DNA of 64,000 bases, taken from positions 536,578-600,577 of the forward strand of contig CANLOL010000001.1 in the NCBI GenBank assembly GCA_947492905.1, written 5' to 3'. This DNA is from an uncultured Sphingorhabdus sp. (GTDB lineage Bacteria; Pseudomonadota; Alphaproteobacteria; Sphingomonadales; Sphingomonadaceae). The notes under the pieces were generated by a model that saw only the letters and a program-made list of their open reading frames with translations, did no database searches and was not told the DNA's origin. Each line of letters opens with the position of its first letter. The stretch's first letter is position 1. Shown one piece after another: positions 33,466 to 56,900 of the stretch. A program made the position numbers and the translations under genes.

Positions 33466-34953
33466 GTGAAGAGCGCGCTGCTCATTTTTCCGCACCAATT
33501 ATATGAAGACCATCCTGCTTTTGCGCATCAAGTTGATTTAGTCGTAATGATAGAAGATCGCCTGTTTTTTGGCGATGATCAATATCCCTGTCATTTTCAT
33601 AAGCAGAAATTAATATTGCACCGCGCATCGATGCGCCATCATTATGATGGGTTGAAAAAGCGCGAAATAAATGTGGAATATATCGAATATGGTTCTGCGC
33701 ATTGGGATAATATCGCGCAGATATTATCGGATTTTGATACTATCCTATATTGCGATGTAGTGGATTTCACCCTTGAAAAGCGCATAAGAAAATATCTGAA
33801 CGCATCAACATTTGAGGTTTTGGATAGCCCAAATTTCCTCAATACAAATGCTGATAATAGTGCCTATCGCAAAGGCAAGAAACGTTGGTTTATGGCCGAT
33901 TTTTATCAGCATCAGCGTAAACGGCTTAATCTATTGATAGAGAATGACGGCCCCATTGGTGGGCAGTGGAGCTTTGATGAGGATAATCGCAAAAAGCTGC
34001 CCAAAAAAATGATTGATGATCTGCCTAAATTGCCAAGCCCAACTGACAATGAATATGTTCGGGATGCTAAGAAATATGTGGCTGAGAACTTCCCCGAAGC
34101 ATTAGGCGATGATGAAAATTTCCTCTATCCGATTGATCATAGCAGCGCCAAAGATTGGTTATCCGATTTTTTAGAGCATAGATTTGCGAATTTCGGCCCT
34201 TATGAAGATGCGATCGTCGAAGATCAAAATTATCTTTATCATAGCCTGCTCACGCCGATGCTCAACATTGGCTTGCTCGATCCGAAGATGATTATTGATG
34301 CCGCCATAGAGTATGCCGATCAACATGATGTGCCGCTGCCCAGCCTAGAGGGGTTTGTGCGGCAGATTATCGGCTGGCGCGAATTTATGCGCGCGACCTA
34401 TGTTGATTTGGGCGTTTCCATGCGCACCACCAATCATTGGCAGCACAAACACGCTATGCCAGCGGCTTTTTATGATGGCAGCACAGGAATATTGCCGATT
34501 GATAATTGTATCAAACGTATATTGGAAACGGGATATTGCCACCATATAGAGCGGCTCATGCTGCTGGGTGGGTTTATGTTTTTGTGCGAAATTGACCCCA
34601 ATGAAATTTATAAATGGTTCATGGAACTCTTTATCGATAGCTATGATTGGGTGATGGTGCCCAATGTCTATGCAATGAGCCAGCATGCCGATGGCGGACA
34701 AATCACCACCAAGCCTTATTTTTCTGGATCCAACTATGTGCGCAAGATGAGCCATTATGCGAAGGGCGATTGGTGCGATAGCTGGGATGGCCTCTATTGG
34801 AGCTGGATATTGCAACAGGCCGATGACTTGCGCAAAAACCCGCGTTGGGCGATGATGGTGCGCATGGCCGAAAATATGGATGATGATAAAAAAGATCATC
34901 ACCAAAAACAGGCCAAGCAATTTTTAGAGGGGTTGCATGGAAAGGCGGCATAA
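33466..34953 (+). CDS. FeS-BCP-type cryptochrome/photolyase lacking the cluster cysteines
   Basis: 495 residues of the deoxyribodipyrimidine photolyase-related family (PhrB/CryB type). Matching features: LLIFPHQLYEDHPAF start, YRKGKKRWFMADFYQHQRKR, GFVRQIIGWREFMRATY, TGYCHHIERLMLLGGF, and YDWVMVPNVYAMSQHADGG. PhrB proteins bind a [4Fe-4S] cluster with four cysteines: one after TGxx before the D helix, two in SDYCxxC, and one in ACPF. Here these read TGILPID (no Cys), SHYAKGD (Ala432, Asp435) and DWCDSW (Cys437 kept). So three of four ligands are missing. GTG start, with AGGTG just before; no in-frame ATG upstream. Confidence 0.88.
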   Translation: MKSALLIFPHQLYEDHPAFAHQVDLVVMIEDRLFFGDDQYPCHFHKQKLILHRASMRHHYDGLKKREINVEYIEYGSAHWDNIAQILSDFDTILYCDVVDFTLEKRIRKYLNASTFEVLDSPNFLNTNADNSAYRKGKKRWFMADFYQHQRKRLNLLIENDGPIGGQWSFDEDNRKKLPKKMIDDLPKLPSPTDNEYVRDAKKYVAENFPEALGDDENFLYPIDHSSAKDWLSDFLEHRFANFGPYEDAIVEDQNYLYHSLLTPMLNIGLLDPKMIIDAAIEYADQHDVPLPSLEGFVRQIIGWREFMRATYVDLGVSMRTTNHWQHKHAMPAAFYDGSTGILPIDNCIKRILETGYCHHIERLMLLGGFMFLCEIDPNEIYKWFMELFIDSYDWVMVPNVYAMSQHADGGQITTKPYFSGSNYVRKMSHYAKGDWCDSWDGLYWSWILQQADDLRKNPRWAMMVRMAENMDDDKKDHHQKQAKQFLEGLHGKAA

Positions 34954-35028
34954 CGAGAATGCTTGGCCGAAAATAAAGATTAGTTATAAAAGCATTGATA
35001 GTCATTATTTTATTGATAGTCTTTTGAT

Positions 35029-36699
35029 ATGGGGAATCAAAAAACTAAGCCTGATGCAGTGACAAAATATAAACCCTTAAGCCAAGAGGCTTTGATCGCA
35101 ATAGCTGGGATAGCCGCGACTTGCTACACAGGGTTGGCAATAGCAGCAATGATCCCAGGTTTTTTTGGGTTTATCATTCTTATCATTCTGTGTTTTTGTT
35201 TCTATTCCGCTTTGTTTCTGATCTATGATCATTATCAAATTTTGTGTGCTAGTAGTGGCAGCACTGCTGGAAAACCAATTTTGGGTACGGATGATAAATC
35301 CAAACGTTATATGAATATTGGCAAACAAATAGGAGCTGGTGAAAGCATAGGTGGTATTTATGAGAGAATTATTACAGGGTTACTGAATAAAGTTGATATT
35401 TTTTATGGCGATAAAAATAATGTGCAGCGTCGTCTTTCAAAACGTTTTGCGCTACAAAAGCCTGCGGCTTTATGGACGGTAGAAAGCTATGATCGTTCCT
35501 TATTGATTGCTTTCATCTATCCTATATTTTTATGTTTTTCTATCTGGCTGATTACCAACCAATTGGGGTTGGCTGAAACTGCAATAGGATTGAAAAGATT
35601 ATCAAATTTAGAGCGATTTTTTGCTGCTTTTTCATTCCTATTATTCATAATATCTTGTTATAAATTGATCGAAAATAATGGTACAGGGATATGGTGGTTA
35701 TTGTCTTTATCAGCGTTTGTTATTTTATCTATTATATTGCAATCCCATATAATTAGTTTGTTTTTGTTTGTGTTTTTTACTGGCGCTTTCGCTGTCGCTT
35801 TCGCGATCTCTTTTGTTATCACTTACGCTGTCGTTTTCCTTGGCGCTCTCTCATTTGCTCTCGGATTTTCTCTTGCTGGTGATATCGCTGGCGCTTTCGC
35901 TATCGCTATCGCTATCGCTGTCGTAATTATAGCCGCAATTGTCGTAATTATAGCCATAGGAGTACTTGAAGCTGAACATTATATTTACATAGCGTTTACC
36001 ATCCTTATGTTTTCCATATTTCTCATGATTCCATTATTTTCGAATAGCGATGAATCGGGGCCATTATTGTTATTCTTTGGTATATTAATATTCGTTAATG
36101 CTCCATTTGATTGGTTAACCGTTGGGGTGACGCGATGGTTGTTGCGACTAGGTTTAGAAAAAAAGGGATTGTGGCCAATATTTTTGGCAATAGGTGATTT
36201 TATTGCTGCTCTTATATTTATATTTTTATTAGCCGTGGTAACATTATTATCTGTTCAGCTATTTGGTGCTATGGAAATATTGGGCGTTGCGGGTAGGGCC
36301 ACATTGGCGACCGATGATATATTAATGGGCATGAACAACCCGGCCCAACGCAGCAATTCGCAATATTTTTGGATTTACGCTATGCTATTTTCGACAATGA
36401 TACCCAGCCTGCTCAATATTGCCATTGGTGCATTTGCATTGATGCGTGGCGCGGGCCCTTTGAATCGCTGGGTGGTTGATGGTATGAAAAACGGGTTTAC
36501 AGGACGTGGTCATTTTGGAGCAGCCTGTTGGTTGGGGGTACAATTACCATTGGGCGTATTATTGGGTTTGGCGATAAATTATTTTGTTCTGAAATTTTTA
36601 TTTTTCGCAGGCCCTATTTATGGAATTGGACTATTGGATTATTTAATCGCGATAGAGCAAGCCAATTGGCCTGCAATGTTTATCGATTGGTTGCGGTGA
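35029..36699 (+). CDS. Multi-pass membrane protein with low-complexity core, unrecognised
   Basis: 556 residues, not recognised. A soluble N-terminal portion (about 75-150, including RSNIGKQIGAGESIGG-like KRYMNIGKQIGAGESIGG) is followed by roughly ten hydrophobic segments. The centre (about residues 243-310) is built from alternating Ala/Ile/Val/Phe units such as GAFAVAFAISF and GAFAIAIAIAVVIIAAIVVIIA; the DNA is a near-tandem repeat. A second part from about 360 has conserved-looking DWLTVGVTRWLLRLGLEKKGLWP. No obvious ribosome-binding site precedes the ATG. More AT-rich than the neighbouring photolyase gene. Converges with marC two bases after its stop. Function unknown. Confidence 0.72.
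   Translation: MGNQKTKPDAVTKYKPLSQEALIAIAGIAATCYTGLAIAAMIPGFFGFIILIILCFCFYSALFLIYDHYQILCASSGSTAGKPILGTDDKSKRYMNIGKQIGAGESIGGIYERIITGLLNKVDIFYGDKNNVQRRLSKRFALQKPAALWTVESYDRSLLIAFIYPIFLCFSIWLITNQLGLAETAIGLKRLSNLERFFAAFSFLLFIISCYKLIENNGTGIWWLLSLSAFVILSIILQSHIISLFLFVFFTGAFAVAFAISFVITYAVVFLGALSFALGFSLAGDIAGAFAIAIAIAVVIIAAIVVIIAIGVLEAEHYIYIAFTILMFSIFLMIPLFSNSDESGPLLLFFGILIFVNAPFDWLTVGVTRWLLRLGLEKKGLWPIFLAIGDFIAALIFIFLLAVVTLLSVQLFGAMEILGVAGRATLATDDILMGMNNPAQRSNSQYFWIYAMLFSTMIPSLLNIAIGAFALMRGAGPLNRWVVDGMKNGFTGRGHFGAACWLGVQLPLGVLLGLAINYFVLKFLFFAGPIYGIGLLDYLIAIEQANWPAMFIDWLR
35899..35955. repeat. Short tandem repeats within the membrane protein gene
   Basis: CGCTAT-type hexamers repeat about 3.5 times (35899-35922, encoding Ala-Ile units), followed by a 21-base unit starting GTCGTAATTATAGCC at 35920 and repeated at 35941. 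Both preserve the reading frame (6 and 21 are multiples of 3), so gain or loss of units would only change hydrophobic length. Confidence 0.8.
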
Positions 36700-42669: not shown

Positions 42670-44934
42670 ATGAGCGATACAGACATAGTATTTACGGACG
42701 AAGAAGCATTATCATTTCACTCCTCTGGCCGCCCTGGTAAAATTGAAATTATAGCCACAAAGCCTATGGCCACGCAGCGCGACCTTAGCCTTGCTTATTC
42801 CCCCGGAGTCGCCGTTCCCGTTCAAGCAATAGCTGATGATCCTTCTGCTGCTTATGATTATACTGCAAAGGGCAATTTGGTCGCAGTTATTTCAAATGGT
42901 AGCGCCATTTTGGGCATGGGCAATTTGGGGGCTTTGGCTTCTAAACCTGTGATGGAAGGAAAGGCTGTATTATTCAAACGCTTTGCCGATGTGGATTCGA
43001 TTGATATCGAAGTCGATACATCCGACAATAAACGCTTTATCGAGGCGGTTGAATTATTAGAGCCGACATTTGGCGGCATCAACCTAGAGGATATTGCCGC
43101 GCCAGATTGTTTCATTATCGAGCAAACATTGCGCGAAAAAATGAATATACCCGTATTTCATGATGATCAGCATGGTACGGCCATTATTGCTGCGGCTGGT
43201 CTTATCAATGCGTGCGAGCTTTCGGGCAAATCGCTGAAAGATTTAAAAATGGTCTGCAATGGCGCTGGCGCTGCTGCTATTGCCTGTACCGAGCTAATTA
43301 AAGCTATGGGCGTGCCGCATGAAAATGTGATTATGTGTGATCGCCAAGGCGTCATATATCAAGGACGCAGCGAAGGTATGGACCAATGGAAATCGGCGCA
43401 TGCTGTGCCTACCGAGAAACGCACCTTGGCCGAAGCCATTAAAGGCGCAGATGTATTTTTGGGCTTATCAGCGGCGGATGCCTTGAGTCAGGATATGGTA
43501 CGCGATATGGCCAAAGATCCGATCATATTTGCGATGGCCAATCCTAATCCTGAAATTTCTCCGCCTTTGGCGCGCGAGGCTAGGCCCGATGCGATTATTG
43601 CCACTGGACGGAGCGATTTTCCAAACCAAGTTAATAATGTGCTATGCTTTCCCTTCATATTTCGCGGTGCTTTGGATGTGCGGGCAACAACAATTAATGA
43701 AGAGATGAAAATTGCCGCCGCCAATGCCATTGCACAATTGGCCCGTGAGCGCGTACCCGAAGAAGTGGCAGCAGCCTATGGCGGCATTAATCACAGCTTT
43801 GGTAAAGATTATATCATTCCATCACCCTTTGATCCGCGCTTAATCGCGATTGTTTCATCTGCTGTGGCAAAGGCGGCTATGGATAGCGGAGTTGCGCAAA
43901 AACCTATTGAAGATATGGATGCCTATCGCACCGAATTAAACAGCCGTTTTAACCCAACCACTTCGGCGCTGACCCAAGTGTCCGAAAATGCACGTGCAAA
44001 TCCGAAACGCGTTATCTTTGCAGAAGCCGAAGAAGAAGTCGTATTGCGCGCCGCCATTCAATTTCGTGATGATGGCTATGGTACGCCTGTATTGGTTGGT
44101 CGCGATCAAAAGGTAATCGAGCAGCTCGAAAAATTGGGCGTTAAAGATCCAAGCAGCTTTGAAATTCATAATAGTGTCAGCAGCCCGTTGATCGACGATA
44201 TGGTTGAAATGCTCTATAAACGTTTGCAGCGGCGCGGATATTTGATGCGCGATATACAGCGCATGGTGAACCGCGATCGTAATATTTTTGGCGCGGCAAT
44301 GCTGAAAATGGGGCAAGCAGATGCCATGATTACCGGTGTCACGCGCACCTTTGCGCAATCCATGCGCGAGCTGCGCCGTGTGCTTGATCCTGCCGAGGGC
44401 AAAACCGCCTTTGGTGTGCATGTGATGGTGGGCAAAAGCCATACCGTCTTCATTGCTGATACGACTGTGAATGAACGGCCAAGCGCCTGTGAATTGGCCG
44501 ATTTTGCAGAGCAAACAGCGGCCGTTGCGCGGCGTATGGGCCATGTACCGCGCGTGGCATTTCTATCTTACTCTAACTTTGGTAATCCAGCGGGGCAGTG
44601 GTTAGAGAATCTGCGTGAAGCGGTAACATTATTGGATTCGCGCGGCGTTGATTTTGAATATGAAGGCGAGATGGCGCCCGATACGGCGCTAAACCCAAAG
44701 GTTATGAAAAACTATCCATTCTCGCGCCTTTCTGGCCCAGCCAATGTGCTGATTATGCCGGGGTTGCAATCGGCCAATCTATCGGCAAAGCTTTTACGCG
44801 AATTGGGTGGGGACCGCACGATTGGGCCGATGCTCATTGGCATAGAAAAACCTGTCCAAGTCGCCACTATGGCCTCTAGCGCTTCGGAATTGGTATCGCT
44901 CGCGGTATTGGCAGCAGCGGGCATTACTGATTGA
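42670..44934 (+). CDS. maeB: NADP-dependent malic enzyme with phosphotransacetylase-like domain
   Basis: 754-residue MaeB: oxidative decarboxylation of malate to pyruvate. Residues 1 to about 425 are the malic enzyme part (ATQRDLSLAYSPGVAVPVQAI; FHDDQHGTAIIAAAGLINA; VCNGAGAAAIACTELIKAMG for NADP). Residues about 440-754 are a phosphotransacetylase-like regulatory domain without known catalysis (RVIFAEAEEEVVLRAAIQF; GVTRTFAQSMRELRRVLD). The end reads SLAVLAAAGITD. A diverged copy of this end lies about 300 bases further on, behind a small membrane ORF. AAGG lies 6 bases before the start. Confidence 0.95.
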   Translation: MSDTDIVFTDEEALSFHSSGRPGKIEIIATKPMATQRDLSLAYSPGVAVPVQAIADDPSAAYDYTAKGNLVAVISNGSAILGMGNLGALASKPVMEGKAVLFKRFADVDSIDIEVDTSDNKRFIEAVELLEPTFGGINLEDIAAPDCFIIEQTLREKMNIPVFHDDQHGTAIIAAAGLINACELSGKSLKDLKMVCNGAGAAAIACTELIKAMGVPHENVIMCDRQGVIYQGRSEGMDQWKSAHAVPTEKRTLAEAIKGADVFLGLSAADALSQDMVRDMAKDPIIFAMANPNPEISPPLAREARPDAIIATGRSDFPNQVNNVLCFPFIFRGALDVRATTINEEMKIAAANAIAQLARERVPEEVAAAYGGINHSFGKDYIIPSPFDPRLIAIVSSAVAKAAMDSGVAQKPIEDMDAYRTELNSRFNPTTSALTQVSENARANPKRVIFAEAEEEVVLRAAIQFRDDGYGTPVLVGRDQKVIEQLEKLGVKDPSSFEIHNSVSSPLIDDMVEMLYKRLQRRGYLMRDIQRMVNRDRNIFGAAMLKMGQADAMITGVTRTFAQSMRELRRVLDPAEGKTAFGVHVMVGKSHTVFIADTTVNERPSACELADFAEQTAAVARRMGHVPRVAFLSYSNFGNPAGQWLENLREAVTLLDSRGVDFEYEGEMAPDTALNPKVMKNYPFSRLSGPANVLIMPGLQSANLSAKLLRELGGDRTIGPMLIGIEKPVQVATMASSASELVSLAVLAAAGITD

Positions 44935-44967
44935 TATGAAACGAAGAGATATGGAAATCGAAAAGCA

Positions 44968-45210
44968 ATGGTAATGAGGGTCAATATTATTTTTTTCATA
45001 ATAGGTATATTATCTTTCCCTATTTTTTTAACGATGACTTACATTTTATGGGTAGCATATGCTTTAAACCAAGCGCCATTTATTGGCGGTGCAGAATTTA
45101 ATTATCTACTTATTCTATATGAACTTATTTTATTTTTAGTAGCTGTTATTATGCCTATATTCTGTTGGAAAAATATCAGAAATATAAAAAGTAAGAAACA
45201 GAAGTTGTAG
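44968..45210 (+). CDS. Small membrane protein, unrecognised
   Basis: 80 residues (78 from a second ATG at 44974). Two hydrophobic helices (IIFFIIGILSFPIFLTMTYILWVAYAL and LLILYELILFLVAVIMPIFCW) and a basic C-terminus (KNIRNIKSKKQKL) suggest a two-helix inner-membrane protein with cytosolic ends. No family recognised; no clear ribosome-binding site. It lies entirely in the segment between the intact maeB stop and the maeB 3'-end relic, so it probably arrived with whatever separated the two ends. AT-rich compared with maeB. Confidence 0.45.
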   Translation: MVMRVNIIFFIIGILSFPIFLTMTYILWVAYALNQAPFIGGAEFNYLLILYELILFLVAVIMPIFCWKNIRNIKSKKQKL

Positions 45211-45305
45211 CGAATTGGGCCACCGATTAAGTCGGCAGTATCTTATCCAGCGCATCAAAAATGATGTCGCTAGCTGTGCTGGCAGCGGCTGGTATTACTG
45301 ATTAG
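45211..45305 (+). pseudogene. Relic of a second maeB 3' end
   Basis: From 45231 the frame reads VGSILSSASKMM then SLAVLAAAGITD and stops, aligning with the end of the intact MaeB (VATMASSASELV then SLAVLAAAGITD). Over the last 12 codons before the stop, all residues are identical and seven codons differ, every one silently. The preceding 20 bases resemble the MaeB IGP region in another frame, with a deletion or frameshift. The piece has no start and is far too short to function. The silent-only divergence shows it comes from a once-selected malic enzyme gene, not a recent copy of the neighbour. Confidence 0.8.
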
Positions 45306-45307
45306 TT

Positions 45308-45892
45308 TTATATGGACTCTATGTGATCCGATAATATTGATACTGTCTCTAATAAGCCATGGCTTTCTAGGGACAATATATATTTTTCTGGAGTCATTTC
45401 TGGCTTTTGCAATCTAGAGCGTAATATTTTAATTTTCGCTACTGCTTTGCCTACATCTAAGGCAATTGTGTCTGCAATAAAGTCGTCTGCCGTTCTGGCT
45501 TCCATATTAAACTTACTCAATATGTCCGAAGGAAAATCTTTGATATTTTCGGTGACTATTGATTGAGCTTGCGTCTGAATGGCACTCATAATGATATGCT
45601 CATCATTTTCATCGGGTAAACCTGTAACAAATGGCTTCCCGTTTAATTCAACTAGAGCCTCTGGAAATGCCGTTTTCATGGCCTGTATAGACTTTGCTGA
45701 CCGTGATATAGAATCTGGCTCTTTACGTTTATTAAATATTTTTATGAGCGCAACATTTGTTTCTTCTAATATTTTTTCAGACCAACGCACTCTGAAGAAC
45801 TCTGCTTCAGCAAGAGTTAATAATAAATCGCGCTTTGGAGCACTTACTAAAGAGCAGGCGTCTATTAAGGCAGTATACCGATTAGCAAACAT
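45308..45892 (-). CDS. PIN-domain protein, putative toxin
   Basis: 194 residues with the acidic residues of a PIN-like RNase: LIDAC near the start, an acidic pair in ILEETNVAL, and GLPDENDEHIIMSAIQTQAQSIVTENIKDFP, the typical DxxD and T-x-(N/D) region. PIN toxins cleave RNA and are held by a DNA-binding antitoxin from the gene before. Here the upstream partner is an excisionase-like HTH protein 12 bases away on the same strand. The extra C-terminal 60 residues (ADDFIADTIALDVGKAV ...) are found in a PIN subfamily paired with HTH partners. The stop is 2 bases from the maeB relic. Confidence 0.8.
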   Translation of the reverse strand: MFANRYTALIDACSLVSAPKRDLLLTLAEAEFFRVRWSEKILEETNVALIKIFNKRKEPDSISRSAKSIQAMKTAFPEALVELNGKPFVTGLPDENDEHIIMSAIQTQAQSIVTENIKDFPSDILSKFNMEARTADDFIADTIALDVGKAVAKIKILRSRLQKPEMTPEKYILSLESHGLLETVSILSDHIESI

Positions 45893-45904
45893 AAGGGGTT
45901 TGTA

Positions 45905-46363
45905 TCAGTATAAATCGGAGTCACTGGAAAGTAGTTCATCAAGTGCATTTGACCGTTGTTTTTCTCTTGTCGCCTTATAGGCAAATACGTCTTCTGCTTT
46001 GACACGTCTATGGCGCCCAACCATAGTATGGTTTATATCTTTGCTATCAAGTAGTTTTATAAAGTATGGTCTGGACACGTTTAAAAGATCTGCTGCTTGC
46101 TGTGTGGTAAGCATCTCATGAGTAGGGACAAGAGTAACAGCATGACCACTACCAATATGGCGAAGCAGTCGTAGGAAAATATCGGACATCTTAGGCGTAA
46201 GTGTAATTTCTATTGGTCTTTTTGTGTTAGGGTCTGGAATTTTTAGAGTTGCTTCTCCATTGGTTTGTGCGGCTAAAATACGGCGTAACTGATTGGCGAC
46301 CTGTCTGTCATCGGCAGAAGGAAGTTTATTACCAAATGGTAATGCTGTTGCTGGCACTGTCAT
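45905..46363 (-). CDS. Excisionase-type HTH protein, putative antitoxin
   Basis: 152 residues. The C-terminal half has a MerR/excisionase-like winged helix: EMLTTQQAADLLNVSRPYFIKLLDSKDINHTMVGRHRRVKAEDVFAYK. This is the DNA-binding part of antitoxins paired with PIN toxins of the neighbouring type. The N-terminus (TVPATALPFGNKLPSADDRQVANQLRRIL) may bind the toxin. The start at 46363 is supported by GGAG about 8 bases before. Two direct repeats upstream may be its own operator. It could alternatively be a stand-alone regulator. Confidence 0.8.
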   Translation of the reverse strand: MTVPATALPFGNKLPSADDRQVANQLRRILAAQTNGEATLKIPDPNTKRPIEITLTPKMSDIFLRLLRHIGSGHAVTLVPTHEMLTTQQAADLLNVSRPYFIKLLDSKDINHTMVGRHRRVKAEDVFAYKATREKQRSNALDELLSSDSDLY

Positions 46364-46408
46364 AACTATTCTCCGGTAATTTTTGTTTATTTTCACTATG
46401 TTTATACT

Positions 46409-46439
46409 ATATTCGCAATTAATGCAATATTCGAATTAA
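46409..46439. promoter_or_regulatory. Direct repeats upstream of the toxin-antitoxin pair, possible autoregulatory site
   Basis: ATATTCGCAATTAA (46409-46422) and ATATTCGAATTAA (46427-46439) are near-identical and 18 bases apart, under two helix turns, about 45 bases before the antitoxin start. Spacing and location suit binding by the HTH antitoxin; AT-rich context lowers certainty. Confidence 0.4.
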
Positions 46440-46492
46440 ACGAAATAACTAGACACCTATCATTAAATTTTGATTAATAAATAGTGCGCCAA

Positions 46493-46525
46493 CAAAAATG
46501 GCGACGCTCCGAAGAACGCCGCCAT
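46493..46525 (-). terminator. Terminator of katG with UUCG loop
   Basis: On the minus strand a 12-bp stem (ATGGCG and CGCCAT at the base, two G-T pairs) closes a TTCG tetraloop and is followed by five T. It lies about 50 bases after the katG stop. Confidence 0.9.
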
Positions 46526-46573
46526 ATTTATCACAAGCACAGTAGGAAGGGGGGAGGCTGTGCTACGTGATCT

Positions 46574-48751
<2,178 letters not shown>

Positions 48752-49713: not shown

Positions 49714-49965
49714 TTTTTGTCCTTTCCTCCTAACAGCGCTGCGCGGGATTGCACAGCTGTCTGCGTGGGTAAATGATTGTCACGATATGCAGTTCGTTTT
49801 TGCGCAATGCAAGGTTACAGGCATTTTTATTTTTCGATCAGAGTGATTGAGTGGGTGGTTTTATGTTAAGTTTCCATTATAATAATATTCTATTAATAGA
49901 TAAAACAGCTTAGTGGTAATTAAATTCATTAATTCGGTATATCAATATTTATAAAGGCGATCTTC

Positions 49966-50955
49966 ATGAAAAAACGCGCTCCTAGAAATAGAACCCTGAC
50001 AATTAGCGAAGATGAAGTTGATAAGTTAATGAAATTGACGATACAGATAAAGTCGGGAAAAACGCTAGATCAAATTGTTAATAAAATAATCTATCAAGAT
50101 TTATTAGATTGCGCTAAATTTATTCCAGAAAACAGTGTTGACCTTCTAATTTTAGACCCTCCATATTTCTTGGATAAAGTATTTGGGAAAACAAAGTTTA
50201 AGAAAGCTAATATTGAAGAATATGTTGCGTTGTTTGAAAAGTGGATTTTATTACTTAAGAAGTCACTAAAAAAAACATCTACTATATATATCTGCTCTGA
50301 TTGGAGAACTTCCAATATTATATTCCCAATACTTGATAGAAATTTTATAATAAGAAATAGAATTACATGGGAACGTGAGAAAGGGCGTGGCGCTAAGTCA
50401 AATTGGAAAAATTGCTCTGAGGATATTTGGTATTGTACAAATTCAGAGGAATATATTTTTGATGTGGATGCAGTTAAATTAAAGAAGAGAGTCCTAGCTC
50501 CATATAAAGATGAAAATGGGGTCCCAAAAGATTGGAAAAAGTCAGGCGATGGCAATTTCAGACATACCTTTCCATCTAATCTATGGTCAGATATATCTAT
50601 TCCTTTTTGGTCAATGCCAGAGAATACCGATCACCCTACCCAAAAACCCGAAAAGCTAATTGCAAAATTAATTTTAGCAAGTTCTAAGAGAGGCGACGTT
50701 GTATTTGACCCATTTTTAGGTTCAGGAACAACAGCAGTGGTTGCCAAAAAGTTGGACCGTAATTTTATAGCTATTGAAAGAGAAGAATATTATTGTCAGT
50801 TAGCTATAAAACGGTTGATTAATGCCGATGTGGATAAGAGCATACAAGGCTATAGCGAAGGCTACTTTTGGGAGAGAAATTCTCTCAATCTTCAAAAAAA
50901 ATCACAAGAAACAGCTATCAAAGAATCACATAATTCAAATGGAAGTTTATTTTGA
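49966..50955 (+). CDS. DNA (adenine-N6 probable) methyltransferase, type II beta class
   Basis: 329 residues. The catalytic DPPY is at 64-67 and comes before the SAM-binding DPFLGSGTT at 248-256, with the target-recognition region between; this order defines the beta class. HPTQKPE (223-229) is the conserved block before motif I. DPPY favours N6-adenine over N4-cytosine, where SPPY is commoner. The first 40 residues are a basic helix-rich extension. The gene is much more AT-rich than its neighbours and the next gene overlaps by one base (TGATG). Recognition sequence cannot be read. AAAGG precedes the start. Confidence 0.88.
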   Translation: MKKRAPRNRTLTISEDEVDKLMKLTIQIKSGKTLDQIVNKIIYQDLLDCAKFIPENSVDLLILDPPYFLDKVFGKTKFKKANIEEYVALFEKWILLLKKSLKKTSTIYICSDWRTSNIIFPILDRNFIIRNRITWEREKGRGAKSNWKNCSEDIWYCTNSEEYIFDVDAVKLKKRVLAPYKDENGVPKDWKKSGDGNFRHTFPSNLWSDISIPFWSMPENTDHPTQKPEKLIAKLILASSKRGDVVFDPFLGSGTTAVVAKKLDRNFIAIEREEYYCQLAIKRLINADVDKSIQGYSEGYFWERNSLNLQKKSQETAIKESHNSNGSLF

Positions 50956-52112
50956 TGCATAATGAAATAAATAAATTTATAACTTTTATCAATGATCATC
51001 ATGGTATTGATAATAAAACTTCATTAATCAATCTTCTTAAAGGCAATTTCAATCTAACGAAGGATCGTTCTGTATACTATTGCGATCACTTTTCATTTAG
51101 GGTCAGCTCAAGTAAAAATAAATCTTTTAGCAATACTGTATTATCTCTTTCTAATCTAAGGAAGTATGATCACCTTCCTTTCTTTGTCTGTTTGGTAACG
51201 CCAGAAAAAAATTATTTATATATAGCAAATAGCAGTTTTTTGAAAAAGATCAGCCATAGCTCGCAACACCTGAGAGTTGATAATATCAAAGGTAGTTTCA
51301 ATGGTTCAGATATTTTCACTGAATTTCAGGGCTTAGACAATAAGCCTAACAATTTTGATCAATTATATAGTTTTCATGCTGAACTAGGCTTTCAGGAAAA
51401 TTTGCCTCGTTTAGTAGAAGCGACAAATAATATAACGCCAAAAGGTAATAAGTTTGATGCTAAGCAATCTCAAATCGATGCTATTCTGAATGCTCCTAAA
51501 AGAGCGTTGGATTTTATTAACTCTCCACATTACAATGAACTAAAGAACGAATTAGATAAAAAAGTAAGTGATTATTCAAATGAGATTATAATTGCTAGCT
51601 TGATTGAAAATGTGAATGTTAGAGGGAGGGTTATTGAATATTTAATTGCAGGTAAAGATGATGAGCTTCGCAATCAAATTATTGAGGGACTTAAAGACCC
51701 AGATCATAATTTACCTCGGTTCAAAACTGATAATAAGCTGGGCGATTATCAGAGGATATTAGACAGTTACATAACTGAAACAGATATTAAAACTAAAATT
51801 ATGGTGCTTAATTCTAATCCAAAGGCTTATAATTTAGATAAAATGCTAGAATTTCTTGCTGAGGAAGGATCAGTGTTTCTTTTTTACTTTATAGGAATTG
51901 GTTCAAATAAAATAACAAATACAGCTTTGGTCTCAATTTTTCAAACGAAACTATTATCCAAGACATTTGTTTTTAATCATTGGGCGGGCAGAAACTCGCG
52001 TGGTGTGACTCAATTTGAAGGAAAAACTATAGCAGAGATTCTACACAGCGGTGAGAATGATGTTGATCAAGAGGCAGCTCTAGTTTTTCTAAATGAAATA
52101 TTATCGCTCTAA
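50955..52112 (+). CDS. Putative cognate restriction endonuclease, unrecognised
   Basis: 385 residues, no family I can name. The start ATG shares its first base with the methyltransferase stop, so the two are coupled. Visible features: an N-terminal beta-like region (YYCDHFSFRVSSSKNKSFSNTVLSLSNLRKYDHLPFFVCLVT), a charged helical middle (SQIDAILNAPKRALDFIN), and a late block FVFNHWAGRNSRGVTQFEGKTIAEIL. No unambiguous PD-(D/E)xK, HNH or GIY-YIG motif is seen. Linkage, AT-rich composition and size fit a type II nuclease. Convergent with a GST-like gene. Confidence 0.6.
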   Translation: MHNEINKFITFINDHHGIDNKTSLINLLKGNFNLTKDRSVYYCDHFSFRVSSSKNKSFSNTVLSLSNLRKYDHLPFFVCLVTPEKNYLYIANSSFLKKISHSSQHLRVDNIKGSFNGSDIFTEFQGLDNKPNNFDQLYSFHAELGFQENLPRLVEATNNITPKGNKFDAKQSQIDAILNAPKRALDFINSPHYNELKNELDKKVSDYSNEIIIASLIENVNVRGRVIEYLIAGKDDELRNQIIEGLKDPDHNLPRFKTDNKLGDYQRILDSYITETDIKTKIMVLNSNPKAYNLDKMLEFLAEEGSVFLFYFIGIGSNKITNTALVSIFQTKLLSKTFVFNHWAGRNSRGVTQFEGKTIAEILHSGENDVDQEAALVFLNEILSL

Positions 52113-52120
52113 ATTCCATC

Positions 52121-52879
52121 CTACAAACTATTCACCACCAGATAATCTTGAACCAAGATAGGATTTGCGGGCAAATGCTGTGCCACCGCGTAAAACCAAT
52201 TTTTAAGTGGCTCTAATTTGGTGATGGCGGGTTCATCTTCGCAGCCCACCATATAGGAAAAAGCCGCATTGGGGAAAATCGCTAGATCAGCCATGCTAGG
52301 GCTATCAAGCCCTCCCAAGAATGGCCCACCTTTTAATCGCTCTATAAATTCACCGACTAGGCGCATTTGCATCGCGCTATAGCTTTCGGTTAAATCCATA
52401 TTCTCGCCCATAGCTTTGATGAAGGGTGCATTGGCGACAAGGTCAGGCCAACGGCTGCGAATTTCATTGGGTATGGGCGTATCGCTGTTCAGGATTTCAG
52501 CAAAGCGCCATAATCGCGCGCGCATCGCCGCATTTAAATCTGTATCTATCAGGGCGCGAAACCCTGCATGTAAAAATGCGGATGCCCATGCATCATTATC
52601 GCGCACAATTTGTTCATGCTCGGTTGGGCAAAGGGGTTTGTCGGGGAATATTGCATCGAGCCAATGTCCATGATCGGATGATTCTGTACGCCATTCACCG
52701 TCTATTTCCAGTACGGGCACCATAGTTTGCTTGGTATGCCCTATGGTCGCAGCAGGATTGATAGGGTTTACGGGGATATGGGTGAAATCCAGACCTTTAT
52801 AATATAGAAATGCGCCTGTTTTGCGAACAAAAGGGCTTGTTGCATAGCCATAGAGCGTGATTTTGGGGGATGGTGTCAT
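52121..52879 (-). CDS. Glutathione S-transferase family protein
   Basis: 252 residues. The thioredoxin-like N-terminal domain is ITLYGYATSPFVRKTGAFLYYKGLDFTHIPVNP, with MVPVLEIDG supplying the cis-proline and ESSDHGHWLDAIFP the glutathione gamma-glutamyl-binding region; the helical C-terminal domain has FLGGLDSPSMADLAIFPN, the GST N-capping box pattern (S/T-x-A-D). A serine-proline (TSPF) at the active site points to cysteine-free bacterial classes. Substrate unknown. Converges with the restriction gene 8 bases away and is separate from bacterioferritin by a terminator. Confidence 0.85.
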   Translation of the reverse strand: MTPSPKITLYGYATSPFVRKTGAFLYYKGLDFTHIPVNPINPAATIGHTKQTMVPVLEIDGEWRTESSDHGHWLDAIFPDKPLCPTEHEQIVRDNDAWASAFLHAGFRALIDTDLNAAMRARLWRFAEILNSDTPIPNEIRSRWPDLVANAPFIKAMGENMDLTESYSAMQMRLVGEFIERLKGGPFLGGLDSPSMADLAIFPNAAFSYMVGCEDEPAITKLEPLKNWFYAVAQHLPANPILVQDYLVVNSL

Positions 52880-52948
52880 ATTCAGTCTCTCCTATAATCT
52901 GACTATGCCCAATTGGCGTCCGAGTCTAGTGATGCAGATTGCAGGCAT

Positions 52949-52977
52949 AAAAAAGGCCGGGTAATAAAACCCAGCCC
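52949..52977 (-). terminator. Terminator after bacterioferritin
   Basis: On the minus strand GGCTGGGT pairs with ACCCGGCC (one G-T) around TTTATT and is followed by T6. It lies about 20 bases after the bfr stop. Confidence 0.88.
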
Positions 52978-52996
52978 TTACTAACCTCTAATGCTA

Positions 52997-53912: not shown

Positions 53913-56900
53913 TTAGAAAGATAGTGTCGCACCGAACTGAATCCGACGATCTGGAAGACCTTGGAAGCAGAGCAGGGCACCGCTGTTAACACAGCTTTGT
54001 GTGATGCGTGATTTGGTGATGTTAACGCCTTCAACGCCGATGTTTAGGAAGTCTGTGACATCATAGTTGATGCTGGCGTTTAGCTGGCCACGAGACTCTG
54101 TTACTGGCGGGAAGCCAAGTGTAGAGTTTAGTGTTGCACCAGCCGCTGTATCCAGCGTGCGGAAATCATCACGCCATGTGTAACGTGCACGGGCAGAGAG
54201 ACCAAATTTCTCATAATATAGAGTGATATTATAAGCATGAGGCGAGAAATCCAATAGACCTTGTACCCTTGTTACAGGCACTTCGATATTTGGATTAATT
54301 GCTTGGAAGATATCTTCACCACGACCAGAGTTAGAGTTGGTTGCTTCACCACCACTAAAGTCTTGATAGGTATAGTTTGCAATCACACCAAAACCAGATG
54401 CAAATCCTAATGTATCTTCAAATTGTGAAAGATCATATTGGAATGCAACCTCAATACCGGTTTGACGTGTTGTACCCGTATCGTTGATGGTTGTTAATAG
54501 CGGTGCACAGATACCATTACCTGGGACATCTGAAAGTACGTTACGACCCGCGATTGGGTTGAAAATACCGCCGCCTTCGCATGGATCAGTAATATCACGG
54601 AAGCCATTTGCATCTTCAAAAGGTTCATCCAATTGCGATACGAACAAGTTCGTACGCGATTTGTGGAAGAAACCGACGCTAATCACAGAAGCTGGTGCGA
54701 AGAAATATGATACTGAAGCATCATAAGAACGCACTGTTTCTGGTGCCAGGCTCGGGTTGCCCAAATTCACTGTGCTGTTACCACCCGTTGGGAAGTTCAA
54801 CGAAATGGATAGATCATCAAAGTCAGGACGGTTAATATCTTCGCCATAGCTGGCACGGAAAACTAAATTGTCCGTCGCTTCAAATATCACGTTAACGCGC
54901 GGTAGCAATTCTTGGTAATTACCGCGAATTATTTGCTCATCAACAACACCATTACCAATGGCATTACCAATAGATGTAATATTTGTGCTGACCCAACGCA
55001 AACCGAAGTTACCGCGTAAACGACCAGTTTCAAAGTTCACCTGACCATATACAGAGTGGGTTTCTTCCTCAACGCGGAAAGAAGCGCCTAAATTGTTTGT
55101 TGTATTAGGATCAAGATCACTCAGCAATCTACCGCCATTAGCAATAGCAGCTTGACCACCCGGTGTTGCATCAAGGACAGCTTGCAATTGTGCGAATACA
55201 TTTGCTTGGTCAGAGAATGAAAGATCAGGGTTGATCAACAAGAAGTTGCGGAAAGCCAATTCACGGCCATCAAATTCACCAAAATTATCTGGACCTTGAA
55301 CAAGCAAGTCAGCAAATTCAGTACCAAATGGACTATTTGCAATTGCGCCAGTACCAAAATTTGTTTCAATTTGCTGAAAATCGGTAGATGTGTCATTGTA
55401 GCGATAGCCAACATCAACAGAGCTGAATATACCGCCAATATCTTCGAGATCCAATGTGGTATCAAGACGGAATGCGGTTTCTCTATTTTCAGTACGGTTG
55501 TTGCCAGCTTGCACCTGATCTAACACCACATTAGCAGGATTTGTTAAATCTGCCACTGTCGGTGCAAATGGTGATGCAAAATCAACGCCAAATGTTAATG
55601 CGCCATCTGTCAAATCAAATATGAATGGTACACTATTATCATTGCTAGTGCCATCAAGTGGCGTTAGCGGATTTGGGTTGATGAAGTTCAACTGAGTGCT
55701 GAGGTTAGGATTGGTTGTATTAGAGATTGCACGCGAACCTTCGATACGAGCAGTAAATCTGCCTGATTCGAATTCCGTGCCCAAACGATACACTTGGCTA
55801 TTCGTTACACGAGCACCAACATCACCAGAGAAACGCAAGTTTGGATCATCATCATCCTGTGCAAGATTGGGTTGAATAGTACCCGTTAAAGCGGCTTGAA
55901 TGCTGCCTAAAGCAACACCGTCTAATGAACCAAAATCAACCGTTTCGAAAGTATCAGGAACATTGATTGTATCAACGGCACTAACACCAGAACCTTGGAT
56001 ACGCGAGCTATCTTGTGTACGGGTCTGATCATTGATGATCGTATCAAAGAAGAATGATAGATTATCATTGGGTGCCCATTCTAAAGTACCAGCAAAGTTG
56101 ATGGTCTCAAACTCAAAATTTTCAGTCTCTTGGTTTAAGAATTGAATACCAAGGAATGGAAAATCAGGGCCAGGAAGCCCAGCAGCCGTTACTGATCCAT
56201 TAGCATTAATCAAATTGTCACGGTCAACACGTGGACGGAATGATGTAGCTTCAAGCTCTGTATAGCTGCCGCTTAATACGATACCGATTTCACCAGCACC
56301 TGTTTCCCAAATATCCCCGAAGCTTCCAGAAATTCTTGGTGAAATAGTGTCAGATAATTCGCTATATTCCCCTTGCACACGCAAAGAAAGAATACGATCG
56401 GTTAAATCTAACGGACGAATGGTACGAAGATTAATTGTACCACCAACAGCACCTTCAATAGTTTTCGCTTCAGGGGCTTTAATTACCTCAACCGAAGCAA
56501 TAATTGCGGGGTTAATATCTTCAAAGCTAATACCGCCGCGGCCAACACCAGCGCTCAATGTTGAAACATCGTTAATTGCGATGCGGTTATCATTGGTACC
56601 GCGAATTTGAACGCCTGTACCAACACCGGCTGTACGTGTAATTTGAACGCCGGTCACATTTTCCAAAACCTCAGCAAGGTTTTGATCGGGAAGCTTACCA
56701 ATATCTTCCGCCTGAATAATCTCTACAAGACTATCTGCATTACGCTTTTCGTTAAGTGCGCTTTCCAATGAGCTACGAATGCCGCTAACGACAATCACAT
56801 CTTCTTCCTCTTCAGCTGCTACTTCAGCTTCTTGTGCCATTGCCGCGGACGGCATCGCACTAGCAGCTATAAGAACGCTAGTGGAGGCGGTAAGCCAACA

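Follow-up and report, generated by a model that had tools for sequence, protein, structure and literature searches.

A second, truncated maeB 3′ end beside a recently transferred PIN/HTH pair at the variable maeB–katG junction of an uncultured Sphingorhabdus

The stretch of DNA analysed here (the window) comprises 64,000 nucleotides of an uncultured Sphingorhabdus sp. (contig CANLOL010000001.1, positions 536,578–600,577; assembly GCA_947492905.1), whose own genome is G000 in a sample holding one genome per species. An intact maeB gene lies at the locus (Table 1). Its product is 97% identical in amino acid sequence to that of G013, a Sphingomonadaceae metagenome genome, and its C-terminus closes with VATMASSASELVSLAVLAAAGITD followed by the stop codon. 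Beyond that stop lie, in order, a low-GC segment with a small ORF, a second maeB 3′ end with a stop codon of its own (the relic), a PIN/HTH gene pair on the opposite strand and, past a terminator-like hairpin, katG. An earlier note made from the letters alone had placed about 300 bases with a small ORF between the two ends and the PIN/HTH pair two bases beyond; the coordinates agree, and the PIN gene indeed ends two bases past the relic.

Table 1. Features of the maeB–katG junction, in window positions
Feature	Position	Strand	Basis
Intact maeB, 754 aa, malic enzyme ending in a PTA-like domain	42670–44934	+	Pfam malic, Malic_M, PTA_PTB
3′ end of the intact maeB, counterpart of the relic	44858–44934	+	Repeat search and ungapped alignment
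Low-GC segment with orphan 80-aa ORF (44968–45210), hydrophobic by eye	44935–45210	+	GC 0.279; 276 bases
Possible decayed 5′ part of the relic, then deletion	45202–45228	+	Local alignment; suggestive only
Relic, second maeB 3′ end with stop	45229–45305	+	55/75 identity to intact end; last 12 codons only silent differences
Horizontally acquired PIN/HTH cassette; left edge at relic stop codon, right edge at katG terminator	45306–46489	-	Absence in G011 and G023; identity profiles
PIN_3 domain protein, putative toxin	45308–45892	-	PF13470 E 2.4e-11; 96% to G013
HTH_17/excisionase-family DNA-binding protein, putative antitoxin	45905–46363	-	PF12728 E 1.5e-10; TIGR01764 E 1.5e-14
Terminator-like hairpin following katG, bounding the inserts on the right	46498–46525	-	12 pairs, 7 GC
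katG, right-hand conserved flank (named from its sequence)	46574–48736	-	83–94% aa identity in three nearest relatives

The relic translates, over window positions 45231–45305, as VGSILSSASKMMSLAVLAAAGITD followed by a stop. When 44858–44932 is set ungapped and in register against 45229–45303, 55 of 75 bases are identical, whereas the runner-up position on either strand of the 64-kb window reaches 37/75; a chance match across the last codons, which the earlier note had named as a possible objection, is ruled out by this difference. The pair is also recovered independently by a repeat search of the window (family D1). The match over 24 codons described in that note, with the last 12 identical in protein and seven silent changes, is borne out. 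Set against the intact end, the last 12 codons show 7 differences, all of them silent, whereas 7 replacement and 3 silent codon differences fall in the 12 codons upstream. Comparison of the replaced codons in the two halves (7/12 vs 0/12) gives a Fisher p of 0.005 for a split picked after the data had been seen. By tblastn, the relic is matched with E 1.8e-05 among the loci compared and E 7.2e-4 within its own genome. A little further upstream, 45202–45219 aligns with maeB at ∼44788–44807; 8 of 1000 mononucleotide shuffles were as good, the region having been picked after the alignment was seen. Because of this resemblance, the relic may be a fragment of ∼104 bases that has lost ∼45 bases internally and overlaps the stop of the small ORF. 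It is most likely scar DNA without a function of its own. A 19-base repeat shared by the relic (45253–45271) and the right edge of the insert (46490–46508; 79%, family D7) was weighed as a possible target repeat but set aside, since two-copy matches of similar quality are frequent in that repeat output.

Ends of maeB were surveyed in 45 same-genus genomes, own genome included, by protein search with the last 40 residues. A maeB end was present in 42 of them (none was found in G015, G033 and G065), and a second, truncated end only in the own genome; relatives lacking the small ORF have a single maeB end, as the earlier note had anticipated. Six weak second matches (E 0.2–0.71; G001, G005, G009, G013, G017 and G062) lie at other sites and were left out of the relic count. 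Copied gene ends were not seen to be widespread either. Among the 53 ends of ORFs of at least 150 codons in the window, scanned over 3 kb downstream for a copy of the last 24 codons, maeB/relic scored 52/72 and the next pair 40/72; the best scores were 35/72 among 29 ends in the G013 contig and 36/72 among 46 ends in the G011 stretch.

The maeB ends of 31 of the 45 genomes were compared letter by letter, four of them of the GITD type (own, G013, G011 and G023) and 27 others. Over the last 36 coding bases, the relic differs from the four GITD-type ends at 5–8 positions, all silent, and from the 27 others at 9–17. On this count it looks like a member of the GITD-type clade, yet unlike each allele compared. 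Its nearest end is that of G011 (5/36 differences), with 8/36 to G013; the last 75 bases of the intact end are nearest to G023 (3 differences, vs 12 to G013). The two ends thus side with different lineages, as had been expected of them, although with so few bases these affinities are weak.

The junction downstream of maeB varies among the close relatives. katG lies beyond maeB in the own genome, G011, G013 and G023 and was not seen at the other 27 maeB loci, for which up to 1.5 kb downstream was examined. In G011, the junction is empty: the maeB stop is followed by ∼12 bases and then the katG terminator-like hairpin, which is also seen by eye in G013 and G023. In G023, 931 bases (0.93 kb) hold a SocA/Panacea-domain gene, with relatives in 5 of 99 genomes (G023 counted), along with a small gene that matches no Pfam family. 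The PIN/HTH pair stands right after the maeB stop in G013, and the own genome has the 28%-GC small-ORF segment, the relic and PIN/HTH. The GC content of the inserts is 28%, 38% and 38%, vs 49% in maeB and katG. In each of the three occupied genomes the insert borders the maeB stop to within a few bases, and G013 and G023 have no second maeB end beside their inserts. Neither the G023 insert nor the small-ORF segment has DNA similarity to the other compared loci. The PIN gene, the SocA-like gene and the small ORF are all uncommon in related genomes. The small ORF was found in the own genome alone among 99 genomes, had no match in the 72,556 plasmid records of PLSDB or in Pfam, PADLOC or NCBIfam, and gave 8 pattern matches in IMG/VR viral contigs, 0 of them confirmed; it may not be a true gene.

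Three further stretches of the window depart from the relatives. A segment of ∼3.2 kb (49797–52994) includes an N6/N4 DNA methyltransferase (49966–50955), where G013 and G011 have ∼130–150 bases between the same neighbours; it is another foreign insert, perhaps a restriction-modification locus. About 1.75 kb at 34948–36698 is without a G013 counterpart, and the G013 matches on its two sides lie 24 bases apart, marking another insertion site. Over 54000–56400, identity to G013 falls to 0.69–0.77, vs 0.86–0.89 just before and 0.83–0.84 just after, which marks this part as either quickly evolving or replaced.

The PIN and HTH genes are adjacent, encode a PIN and a DNA-binding domain and are kept as a pair. 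A scan of genome contigs gave 74 loci, and in 72 of the 74 an HTH relative was present, mostly just before the PIN gene. The domain content is that of PIN_3/HTH_17 toxin-antitoxin pairs of Sphingomonadales and other Alphaproteobacteria, with no notable difference. By this analogy, the pair is probably an ordinary (type II) toxin-antitoxin module, in which a PIN ribonuclease would be kept in check by an HTH antitoxin that doubles as repressor of the operon. The PIN protein scored 101.6 bits against the NCBIfam family RSP_2648_fam_PIN, below the cut-off of 170; its relatives occur on 290 plasmid records and in 9 of 99 genomes, own genome counted. The TIGR01764 match of the HTH protein denotes an excisionase-like DNA-binding fold and is no proof of excision, and its weak PADLOC match to mad1 (E 4.1e-05) may merely reflect the common HTH fold. 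Among the 74 loci, maeB stands beside the pair only in L046, the G013 contig. In Novosphingobium meiothermophilum (L047:1529–6588), an HTH/PIN pair follows a katG relative at a distance of ∼1.8 kb, and both order and orientation match those at the present locus; this arrangement was taken as coincidence.

The pair shows far less divergence from G013 than its surroundings. At fourfold sites, PIN differs at 4/70 and HTH at 8/74, vs 0.36–0.46 in four flanking genes, mutS (150/370), maeB (156/362), katG (113/318) and yaaA (46/99), of which mutS, katG and yaaA are named from their sequences. The divergence being far below that of the flanking genes, the pair is, by this measure, one that moved after the species split, and recently. 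The DNA identity of the two genes to G013 is 96% (PIN) and 94% (HTH). Along the sequence, identity is 0.91–0.98 per 100 bases across 45290–46589 and 0.87–0.92 over the following 600. The left edge is abrupt, with 0.95–0.98 just right of the relic stop vs 8 differences in the last 36 coding bases to its left (relic vs G013 maeB). Because identity breaks at the relic stop, the own genome and G013 have the pair joined to different maeB ends. A tract of elevated identity to G013 reaching into katG or maeB, which a recent transfer through the flanks from a G013-like donor should have left, was not found in the identity profile. This counts against such a transfer, which would call for a third donor or for overwriting at a later time.

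Recombinases were sought in the own genome with the PF00589 profile only, a search that works, since all 14 of 14 control genomes were matched. Five matches were obtained. The nearest lies at C1:714464, ∼114 kb past the window end at C1:600577, and no PF00589 integrase is located within 100 kb of the locus. Three ORFs of the junction (PIN, HTH and the small ORF) had no mobility-enzyme match in Pfam, PADLOC or NCBIfam. The earlier note had likened the event to what integrating elements do at gene ends; the distance of these matches and the lack of a second end beside the G023 and G013 inserts speak against this part of its account.

Four genomes show four states of one junction, and on this ground we read the maeB–katG junction as a cassette-swap site and the relic as left by an exchange with a misplaced crossover (probability about 0.6). 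Conserved maeB and katG would flank small cassettes without recognised mobility genes, which would be swapped by recombination through the flanks. In the case at hand, the incoming DNA would have carried a maeB end, PIN/HTH and katG from another lineage of the same clade. On the katG side it would have joined homologously; on the maeB side, the joining would have taken place downstream of the resident maeB, at or within the sequence beside the small ORF and not inside maeB. With this join misplaced, the second maeB 3′ end would have stayed. The reading is supported by the recent arrival of PIN/HTH, the in-clade position of the relic, the presence of two ends in only 1 of 45 genomes, the AT-rich inserts and the unevenness of the relic, whose last ∼36 bases would fit a fresh arrival together with PIN/HTH. 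The relic may thus be the newcomer that came with the pair. Both the route of recombination and the sequence of events are inferred, the sequence because none of the genomes showed an intermediate state (maeB–small ORF–katG, or PIN/HTH directly after a relic-type maeB). The edges near the maeB stop in the three occupied genomes could instead reflect a site-directed process, although the unoccupied G011 junction has only ∼12 bases between stop and terminator.

The opposite order of events is unlikely, though a fair rival. It would start from a resident relic-type maeB followed by PIN/HTH and katG, into which foreign DNA bearing the small ORF and a new 3′ end was introduced, displacing the old end, much as the earlier note had proposed. 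Such a resident arrangement is seen in G013, with nearly the same bases after the stop; the 28%-GC small ORF is confined to the own genome among the 99, and the intact end has the 3 differences in 75 from G023 vs 12 from G013 noted above. However, the G013 end (8/36) is not nearer to the relic than the others are (5–8), despite the 96%/94% identical PIN/HTH genes beside it. The intact gene argues against this order as well. Its identity to G013 runs at 0.83–0.92 per 150 bases along maeB with no step at the 3′ end, a search of this profile for a foreign tract gave no breakpoint, and its TGA stop is the same as in G011 and G023. Moreover, the likeness of its end to G023 goes little beyond the general nearness of the two species (fourfold differences of 18/64 in the maeB 3′ part, 110/323 in katG and 41/98 in yaaA). 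The proposal of the earlier note thus stands in outline, as foreign DNA at a gene end, whereas its direction and its integrating-element mechanism are not borne out: the relic is not visibly an old end pushed aside, and the recent arrival is the PIN/HTH pair adjoining it.

Less probable still is a local event, in which part of the maeB 3′ end was long ago duplicated in tandem, the copy then decaying and the small ORF and PIN/HTH being inserted around it. The heavily decayed upstream half of the relic (7/12 codons replaced) and the further stretch that is maybe deleted would suit such a history, whereas neutral decay should not keep the last 12 codons protein-perfect with 5–8 silent differences to each end of the clade, and no other genome of the genus surveyed has a copy.

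Prophage e14 integrates in icd and carries a synonymous gene end that restores the gene. In the same manner, a site-specific element could have restored maeB with its own synonymous end, leaving the two ends as attL and attR and the rest deleted. The present locus resembles e14/icd in that an insert lies between two synonymous gene ends, all differences in their last 36 bases being silent, and three genomes have different inserts right after the maeB stop. It differs in that the insert is only ∼0.3 kb, no PF00589 integrase lies in or beside it, and the other occupied genomes, G013 and G023, have no second end. Owing to the far-off integrases (none of the five nearer than ∼114 kb to the window) and these missing ends, site-specific integration is very improbable. 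The dissimilarity of the G023 insert and the small-ORF segment to the other compared loci counts against it too. Within the last 36 coding bases, 7 positions differ between relic and intact end and the longest common run is 10 bases, short for an att core though not impossible, and the similarity of the two ends continues, weaker, upstream of that run. It is just as doubtful that the last ∼36 bases of the relic are a preferred recombination target, with cassettes that carry a short functional maeB end and join at the last codons; if true, this would amount to integrase-free, gene-end-guided cassette insertion.

A cassette-swap site at maeB–katG would have parallels among described systems. The term minimal mobile element reportedly goes back to Saunders and Snyder in 2002. 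By the definition in the excerpted text of PMC3082526, the junction resembles such an element: maeB and katG flank the region in G000, G011, G013 and G023, the whole-gene cassettes between them differ (empty, SocA-like, PIN/HTH, and small ORF with relic and PIN/HTH), and no mobility genes of their own are recognised in PIN, HTH or the small ORF, the nearest PF00589 match lying ∼114 kb away. Exchange through the flanks, as deduced for such elements, may apply here too: PIN/HTH is horizontally transferred, but a donor flank tract is not visible in the identity profile. Unlike the elements in that text, the present states are found between species rather than strains, include an empty one, and leave a flank-gene end inside the cassette region. 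Joining that is homologous at one end and illegitimate at the other has been described as homology-facilitated illegitimate recombination (excerpted text of PMC3240628), and a one-sided homologous join of this kind would explain an extra, misplaced fragment of the flank. That process, as the same excerpt has it, was described from experiments with competent bacteria and conjugation, whereas here it is deduced from a scar.

The relic is most likely the debris of an imprecise DNA swap, a known kind of event with unusually clear traces. No known principle is changed by it, and its value is modest, as a case study of cassette turnover between conserved sphingomonad genes. Read as a cassette-swap site, the locus would preserve a legible trace of the way in which toxin-antitoxin and other small cassettes can become chromosomal without bringing an integrase, with the leftover end of a flanking gene as the record of a misplaced crossover.
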